Shown here one piece after another: positions 47,001 through 50,000 of a DNA stretch of 64,000 nucleotides. Source of the stretch: Ianthella basta. Lineage: Eukaryota > Porifera > Demospongiae > Verongiida > Ianthellidae. The stretch is from contig OZ025884.1 of assembly GCA_964019415.1 (NCBI GenBank), positions 2,847,875 through 2,911,874 of the forward strand, written 5' to 3'. Position numbers and translations under genes: made by a program. The notes below the pieces were generated by a model. That model was not told the DNA's origin, searched no databases, and saw nothing but the letters and a program-made list of their open reading frames with translations. Position 1 is the stretch's first letter. Every line of letters begins with the position of its first letter.

Positions 47001-50000
47001 ACCTCCGCCTTGGTCTCATGACTGTGGTGCGTGCCATGTTTGCTTTCTGGCCCAGGTGGGTCAGAGGAGATTGAGTAGTGATGAAATACAACACCATCTG
47101 TGTGGAGATGCAAAGTACATTGAATCTTCCACTGCAGCTACACTTATGTATACATGTGTGACGGAACCCATCATGCAAATAACAATAAGCTTTGGAAATG
47201 GCCATTGCATACCAAATATGGAGGTACCATCCAGTTGAGTTCAAGTATACACAACTGCACAGCACCCCAACAGGTGCATTGCGAGGTATGTAGTTATTAC
47301 TATAGAGTGCATCTACAATAGATCACGCACTTGCTGCAAATTCTGTCTCCATTAATTCTTGGTGGCTGATGCAATTGTTGATGTCATTTTCCATTATACC
47401 TCTGGAAACAGTATGGTCTTTGTCCACAGCTTGAATGGTGTCTTCTAGACTATCTTCTACATCAAATATGTCCTTGCTAGCTTCTGTGGTGTCACTAGAG
47501 ACCATCTCACTTAAGACACTCTTCAGTGCAGTGCATTTTGGGTCCTCATCACTTCTCTCCACCATCTCCATGATCTCGCTGTAGGTACCACAAGCAAGGC
47601 ATTCACCCTACATACAGGCAGGTTGGGAAGTGCAGCTAATAATGTAAATTGTCACAAGATTATAGTGCAAAGATAAGTAAAATTATAGCGTCACTGATAG
47701 GAAGCAGTTTAGAAGCACATGCAAGCCTGGCTAGCAGTTATGCTAAGAAAGGCATCCAGGTAAACATATGCACATATGTGGCTAAATACTGGGTAATATG
47801 CACTAGACATGTGCTTAGAACACATGGTCTTTGAGAAAGTCCCACCTGGTCCACTACCAGCATTGTGTCGGCCAACTGGGCATACTGCAGCTGGTGGGTG
47901 ACCAGCACCACCACACTGCTGCTCAGTACGCCCTTCAGGCAAGTTTCAAACAGCCTGCGACCAACAACAGTGTCCACTGCACTGAGAGGGTCATCCAACA
48001 GGTACACATCTGCTCTGCGGTAAACGGCCCTATAAAAGATGCAAGAAAACAAAGGGACTGATGCAAGTAGGCACCAAACCATGTACTCTTGTCAAGCTGT
48101 AAAATTGTTAGTATCCTGATTCTATGCAATACACCAACTCAATTGGTGATAAGTTCACTTCTTGCCTTCAAACTGCCTTCAAATTGCCTTCATGACGGTG
48201 ATTAGATAACACAGGACAATTCATACTAAGACTATTATCAGCACACCAATGAACCCACCTTGCCAGAGTGACTCTTGCCTTCTGACCCCCACTCAGTGTT
48301 ACTCCTCTCTCCCCCACAGGAGTAGCTTCTCCATAGGGAAGCTGCTTAAAGTCCTCATTCAGGCAGCAGGCATCCACCACCTGCTGGTACCAGCTGGGGT
48401 CAAACTCACGCCCAAACAGAATATTCTCCCTCAGTGTCCCAGAGAACACCCAGGGGTCTTGTGCTGCATATCCCAGACTGCCAACAATGTCAACACTTCC
48501 CTGTAGTGGCTGAAGCTCACCCAAGAGACAGTGGAGAATGGTGGACTGCAAGGAGGGACATGACAAACTCCTACTCACCCTATTGAGTATAGATCGTCCA
48601 TGAATAGAGTAGAGAAGCTTGTCGACATCCACACTGTGACAGTGTATACAACGTACCTTCCCTGCTCCCACAGGTCCAACAATTGCCACCATTCGGGCAT
48701 TCTGGCCGCAACAAAAGGAAATGTTCTTCAAGGTGAGTCTTCCACCAGTCTTTGCAATAGAAAGAAGCACACAATTGTGTTTAATGGTAAAATATTTGGT
48801 ATCACCTAGCATGGCATTTGTGTAACAATTAAGAGGGCATTCATGCATTGTGTAACAGTATATGTATGCATACTTACCTCTCCCTTCTCCCATGCAGCAG
48901 ATAGGCCCTCCACCACCACTTTTGGTCTCTCTCTTGAGCCATTCTTACTTGGGTATTCTCCCATCTGACTGCAACTCCCATCTACCAAATGAATCACATT
49001 TTCACATTTCCCCACACCGTAACCATTGGGAAAAGATGCTTTATTCAGAGATGGACGTCTGCTGTACCGTCTAGCCCGAGAGGGGTCTGGGAGGTCCTTC
49101 AGAAGTAGCTCCTGAATATGGGATGTACAGCTGGGATTGTATGTTACTGTTTGTACAAACAAAACGTTTAATAATGCACTTCTAAACAATAAATACCCAA
49201 ACTTAAGTCTTAAAAACTGTGAGGAAATAGCAGCAACCAAATTTAGCATTTCGAAAAAGTTCAGGATTAAGAGGGTAAAATTTTAGTGCTTTTCCAGTTT
49301 CTTGTGCATAAAACTCTTTGCCCGAACAAAACATGTGGCAGATACTATTTTAAGGATTTTGTACTACTCACTACATGCACTAAACTTAGTATTTGTGAAA
49401 TTTGTAGCCTTAAAGCCATTAATGTCGTACCAGCCCACTTCCATCCGCCATTTTGACAAAGGCACGGAAGGTGGTCTGGCAAACTGAGCCCACATTCCTG
49501 GGCCTAGTGACGTCATGCCTGATCACGCAAGACGGTATGACACCTGCCCGCATATAATTATGTGAACCTTATGGCACTAGCAATCAATCGCTGCCATCTT
49601 TGCGGTGCTCCACAGCTCCCGGGCACTGAATCGCAGAAAATTGAACATGAAAGGAAAGAGACCATTGTAAAGTGACTTTCACGTGCCAGTACGTTGGAAG
49701 GGAAACGAACACGTCTTCGCCACCCACAAAGTGGATGACAGCCTCACGTTGTTCCTCTGTTAGATGCTGATAACCCAGGCGACACGAAGCGTTTGACAAC
49801 TCTGCTTCTGGAGTACCATTTCCCATCACATGTACATATAAATGGCTGGCCAGGGAATCATGTGACCGATCTGCAATCTGATTAGTATTCTCGATTCTGG
49901 GAACGAGACGTCACTAGGCCCAGGAATGTGGGCTCAGTTTGCCAGACCACCTTCTGCACCTTTGTCAAAATGGCAGCCGGAAGTGGGCTGGGTACAAGAC

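Follow-up and report, generated by a model that had tools for sequence, protein, structure and literature searches.

A 583-bp element in the window, the whole 64,000-nucleotide stretch of Ianthella basta DNA analysed here, carries between its terminal inverted repeats (TIRs) a minus-strand fragment from the 5′ region of a RecQ-like helicase gene. The element is very probably an old non-autonomous copy, internally deleted, from a transposon family that is bounded by TIRs, presumably moves by cut-and-paste, and encodes a RecQ helicase together with a protein of the Pfam family DUF6589. We place it among the non-autonomous, internally deleted members because larger relatives in the same genome hold both genes between TIRs. 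The window copy is thus a further member of an already known kind of RecQ-bearing transposon. What is new or less expected is that the helicase 5′ exon is kept in several short families and that the partner gene is DUF6589, which ties this uncharacterised Pfam family to a transposon that bears a helicase and duplicates 9 bp of its target.

The inverted arms at 49430–49514 and 49907–49991 are 85 nt long and 93% complementary. The original prediction gave arms of about 88 bp and an extent of 49427 to 49994; the inverted repeat stands, but the true ends lie at 49420 and 50002. We set the ends outward to these positions because the relatives begin with TAGTCT-type sequence and a 9-bp duplication lies outside it (Table 1). 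The resulting TIRs of ~95 bp start with TAGTCT or a near variant, and the terminus shared by the relatives reads, small variants aside, TAGTCT(C/T)GTNCCCAGCCC (also recorded as TAGTCT(C/T)GTNCCCAGCCCACTTCC). In the paralogous insertion L005, TAAAGTCAT is found on the side of the left duplication. A 3-bp duplication (GTA/GTA) beside the 85-bp arms was dropped as a candidate, the ends of the copies lying ~10 bases farther out with a 9-bp match.

Table 1. Features of the window element and of its immediate surroundings (positions in the window).
Feature	Position	Strand	Basis or remark
Whole non-autonomous element, 583 bp	49420..50002	.	Termini set against 17 other copies starting with TAGTCT or a near variant
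Left TIR (3′ end in the helicase sense)	49420..49514	+	Outer part one base short
Right TIR (5′ end in the helicase sense)	49907..50002	-	
Left 9-bp target site duplication, TAAAGCCAT	49411..49419	.	
Right 9-bp target site duplication, TAAAGTCAT	50003..50011	.	One mismatch to the left duplication
RecQ-like helicase fragment, 45 residues	49692..49826	-	Matches to helicase frames of the same genome
4-bp stretch GTAC in the former Walker A codons	49689..49692	-	Placement ambiguous by 1–2 bases
Start-codon position of most aligned relatives	49817..49819	-	Window frameshifted against the helicase frame, then a stop
Open frame with the adjacent exon of the host gene (ABC-transporter-like)	50008..50382	-	Same strand as the helicase fragment

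Among the 18 copies with both ends located, the 9-bp flanks differ at no more than two positions in 15 copies and are identical in 9; among 306 swapped pairs of flanks, none comes within two mismatches. When duplication lengths from 3 to 14 bp were compared across these copies, a signal of this kind appeared at 9 bp alone. The duplication is absent in three of the 18 (L016, L028 and L034). L028 and L034 have flanks in common, and L031, one of the exact matches, falls within a CA repeat; these copies are therefore not independent or informative.

The arm is not confined to this locus: at least 129 pieces, many of them arms, match the element in its own genome (209 Mb; best 40 of 222 candidates scored), and the element is therefore far from unique. 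Window-type arms also surround the peptide loci, with at least one arm at 28 of 30 and two at 19 of 30 (best 150 of 277 candidates scored). Genome-search counts taken from the best-scored candidates (40/222, 150/277, 40/536, 29/633 and 150/564) are lower bounds throughout; for DUF6589 (67/67) and the RecQ motif V/VI peptide (65/65) all first-look candidates were scored. A search of 49000–50500 against Rfam at the gathering score gave no matches. The ends of many copies (49430–49470 and 49950–49991 in the window) contain CAAAATGGCGGCCGGAAGTGGG-like sequence, which we take to resemble YY1 and ETS promoter motifs joined together.

The same genome contains larger relatives in which TIRs enclose genes for a RecQ helicase and for a DUF6589 protein. 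The two complete members that were measured span ~6.1 kb and have inverted TAGTCT ends and two convergent genes: the start of the RecQ-type helicase lies at most a few hundred bases from one end, and the DUF6589 gene, apparently multi-exon, enters from the opposite end. In L053 (contig C18), a 6,119-bp element with the ends TAGTCT...AGACTA is flanked by a perfect 9-bp duplication, CGTCAGACT, and has RecQ and DUF6589 convergent on opposite strands. In L044 (C22), 99-bp ends of 98% identity enclose a minus-strand RecQ gene and a plus-strand DUF6589 gene, and the duplication is imperfect (by eye, 7 of 9 positions agree in one register; after a shift of one base, 8 of 9 agree). The pair at L042/L043 (C5) is arranged as in L044 and L053. 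The complete relatives match Pfam DEAD and Helicase_C. The original prediction had looked to arms around full-length RecQ-like genes as the mark of a transposon family; TIRs do enclose RecQ and DUF6589 in L044 and L053, while the closest window-type arms sit on short copies.

The ends of L042 and L044 match those of the window element at ~87% over 52 bp, and the complete element in L053 has a different end type. A lone window-like end in L052 (84% over 87 bp) is close to a remnant with RecQ and DUF6589-like sequence and may come from an independent short copy. Among the complete two-gene elements of the genome, none turned up whose ends resemble the window's as closely as those of its short relatives do. 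For three complete copies that are nearly identical (one on C13 and two on C18), all three helicase-side ends were present at the expected places, and none of the DUF-side ends was.

The association of the two genes extends across the genome. We compared 30 DUF6589 matches with 33 RecQ matches in 27 best-scoring loci (best 29 of 633 candidates scored). DUF6589 lies within 10 kb of 17 of the 27 RecQ loci, against ~0.08 pairs expected under random placement, and 15 of the pairs are convergent (tail to tail) with gaps of 246–750 bp. Seen from DUF6589, 24 of its 30 matches lie within 10 kb of a RecQ motif V/VI match; 18 of these pairs are convergent and 6 are not. This pairing and the complete copies between TIRs bear out the suggestion that these helicases belong to a mobile element. 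That 17 of the 27 top-scoring RecQ loci have a transposon gene as their partner is relevant to counts of RecQ genes in such animals. At the other 10 RecQ loci none of the 30 DUF6589 matches lies within 10 kb, and host genes may be among them. At one of the 10, C2:9452996 (L052), a DUF6589-like frame outside the 30 matches is visible alongside by eye. On C11, an L044-type end (C11:2784817) lies ~2 kb upstream of the best-scoring RecQ frame, of 766 aa (C11:2787019), and DUF6589 is not present within 10 kb of that frame; this is possibly a short element ahead of a host RecQ gene.

The predicted minus-strand peptide does lie between the arms, in a 108-aa open frame at 49584–49910. The fragment matches helicase frames of the same genome over 36 residues at 69% and 47% identity. 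The 69% match is to a 197-aa frame within a 731-bp relative (L025, read in L053); that frame matches Pfam DEAD (9.1e-13) and, at 45% across 143 residues, the 588-aa RecQ frame of L042, whose structure matches are RecQ, RECQ1, BLM, RECQ5 and WRN (top 3.5e-47). In a direct Pfam search the 45- and 106-residue frames gave nothing above the curated cut-off (top weak match WH_Lhr, E 0.017, for the longer frame), and a PDB search with the peptide returned a single weak and unrelated match. Because the peptide by itself yields nothing above the Pfam cut-off, we draw the RecQ link via the longer relatives; the claimed RecQ likeness is upheld by these frames and not by the direct search. We read the window fragment, from its sequence, as a probable pseudo-exon with no detectable function.

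The fragment had been thought to end in a splice donor exactly before Walker A. In the full-length helicases of L042 and L044 the frame runs on through Walker A with no intron, as it does, in the degenerate form SLPTGARQSLCYGLLPFMFDF, in the short copy L004. The apparent donor is due to a GTAC stretch of 4 bp at Walker A in the window copy. This stretch is not conserved: it is missing from the other aligned copies L004, L006/L010 and L007/L027, and L033 (the same locus as L008) has no GT donor because its stretch reads ATAC. The supposed donor is not supported. That the stretch might be private to the window copy was also considered and is ruled out by the ATAC in L033/L008. In the alignment of copies, an upstream frameshift in the window copy breaks the inherited helicase start.

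The exon frame adjoining the element has no Pfam match at E 0.01. At the paralogous locus L041, which covers the place of L002 and has the same insertion, the exon matches ABC_tran (7.5e-7), and the flanks of the element align with those of L003 at 96% over 1.3 kb; the location of the element in an ABCC intron is in this indirect way supported. The insertion occurs with matching flanks in L003 (identical to L002, which is on another contig) and in L005, and is therefore older than the duplication of the ABC-transporter-like locus. The left end is gone from L003, and L005 has no equivalent of 49683–49806, most of the helicase fragment, so the copies have decayed independently. A 3,483-bp stretch shared by L002 and L003 is identical on C93 and C17, and C93 may duplicate part of the assembly or represent an alternative haplotype.

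Pairwise change at codon positions 1, 2 and 3 is 0.184, 0.100 and 0.170 among 12 short copies, 0.059, 0.015 and 0.030 among five L014/L024-type copies, and 0.370, 0.228 and 0.691 among L042, L044, L024 and L004, which include two full-length helicases. An excess at the third position is confined to this last, divergent set. The pattern fits mainly neutral short copies and constrained full helicase genes, though in each of the three sets position 2 is the least changed, contrary to the prediction of strict neutrality.

Copies of the window family measure 371–753 bp, and the lengths form a series from 393 bp (L040) through 583 bp (the window) and 731–738 bp to ~6.1 kb with both genes. In L014, L017, L024 and L025 (731–738 bp) the sequence extends to further helicase motifs. 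The helicase start is also kept between TAGTCT ends in L054, L055 and L057 (662–674 bp, exact 9-bp duplications), L056 (653 bp, three mismatches in the duplication) and L035 (784 bp, one mismatch). The Walker A peptide of L042 gave 564 first-look candidates against 65 for the motif V/VI peptide, and at E 0.01 at least 150 matches (best 150 of 564 scored) against 59. Behind L044-type ends (best 40 of 536 candidates scored), the helicase start follows in at least 25 of 40 cases, mostly ~230 bp inside, and motif V/VI in 5 of 40. The former count used 40 of 43 end matches (three partial ones were dropped) and 29 of 150 Walker A exon matches picked by eye; the latter was made with 6 of the 59 motif V/VI matches and then with all 59, giving 5 of 40 both times. 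The motif V/VI case on C11, which has no helicase start, is probably a neighbouring gene. The excess of the helicase start over motif V/VI is suggestive and inexact, because conservation differs between the two peptides. As a control for asymmetry, a 5′ peptide from the DUF side gave 7 matches, and its region looks poorly conserved. One idea, which is testable, is that short derivatives retain the helicase 5′ exon via a cis signal reaching into it; another is that some of the families share ancestry.

On its 9-bp duplication, TIRs and RecQ helicase, the family appears to fit an Academ- or AcademH-like placement, AcademH having reportedly been described by Kojima in 2020. In the available part of PMC10045372, AcademH encodes a helicase and has target duplications of 9 or 10 bp, and the available part of PMC3627910 reports, after Kapitonov et al., a RecQ helicase in Academ. 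The elements here likewise have TIRs, 9-bp duplications (in 15 of 18 copies, and exact in the 6,119-bp element) and an encoded helicase, which is RecQ in the complete relatives and a broken fragment alone in the window copy. Their partner gene matches Pfam DUF6589, a possible point of difference from Academ. Like MITEs, the short copies are TIR-bounded, multicopy and without a complete gene; unlike MITEs in general, they keep a recognisable helicase 5′ piece, and do so in several families.

A host-like gene fragment between inverted repeats could instead mean that the transposon had picked up the promoter and first exon from a RecQ gene of the host, and capture of gene pieces does occur in some transposons. 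This option, which the original prediction had raised, is very improbable: the fragment has the place and orientation of the helicase gene 5′ end in the complete elements, the longer of the short copies reach deeper into the same helicase gene, and the best-scoring RecQ loci are themselves mostly paired with DUF6589. The fragment very probably stems from the start of the helicase gene that the transposon itself carries. Its strand, shared with the neighbouring exon frame, and its 108-aa open frame would suit use as a chimeric or alternative exon in the ABC-transporter-like gene, but such use appears hardly credible, given that not even L033 shares the donor GT, that the paralogous L005 has lost most of the fragment, and that the third-position excess of the full-length set has no counterpart in the short copies. 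Helicases are also found in Helitrons and KolobokH, to either of which the element is most unlikely to belong. Helitrons are not known to have TIRs or target duplications, whereas both are present here, and the frames scanned with Pfam (a few frames of complete members) include no Rep/HUH protein. KolobokH is, like the present family, a DNA transposon with a RecQ helicase, described in the available part of PMC9587614 from fungi only; it does not fit, because in that text Kolobok duplicates TTAA, and the 9-bp duplications here follow no TTAA rule.

For the family of RecQ and DUF6589 transposons there is also the question of which protein acts as transposase. Above the cut-off, the scanned frames contain helicase families and DUF6589 only. 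The literature searched does not mention DUF6589. We infer that its protein would act as the transposase, recognising the ends and moving both full and short copies, and that the helicase might assist, for example in repair or extension at the donor or target. The window copy entered its intron in the ABC-transporter-like gene ahead of the duplication of that locus and has been decaying since. DUF6589 might alternatively be an accessory or only a part, with the transposase another product. Candidates would be the large frames that lie upstream of DUF6589 and share its strand (one of 358 aa in L053, two of 199 and 156 aa in L044), which have no Pfam match above the cut-off and are taken for putative 5′ exons of the DUF6589 gene; a profile of four DUF6589 frames, moreover, found no convincing solved structure (top E 0.0013, a forkhead protein). 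We consider this alternative unlikely, DUF6589 being the sole non-helicase family above the cut-off in the scanned frames. Among viral contigs and genome contigs no relatives of DUF6589 were confirmed. The wider proposal that DUF6589 is the transposase of RecQ transposons, that RecQ expansions in such animals are mostly transposon genes, and that the exon retained in several short families contains a cis signal required for transposition or a useful N-terminal helicase peptide is tentative and, taken as a whole, somewhat doubtful.

The 731-bp short element L025 (L053:6864–7594) lies directly outside the complete RecQ–DUF6589 element of L053 and has its own perfect 9-bp duplication, GGTATCTTT. 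Retroelement-like frames (integrase, zinc-knuckle and reverse transcriptase, by eye) lie near transposon copies at L039:1764–3838 and L043:1232–2712.
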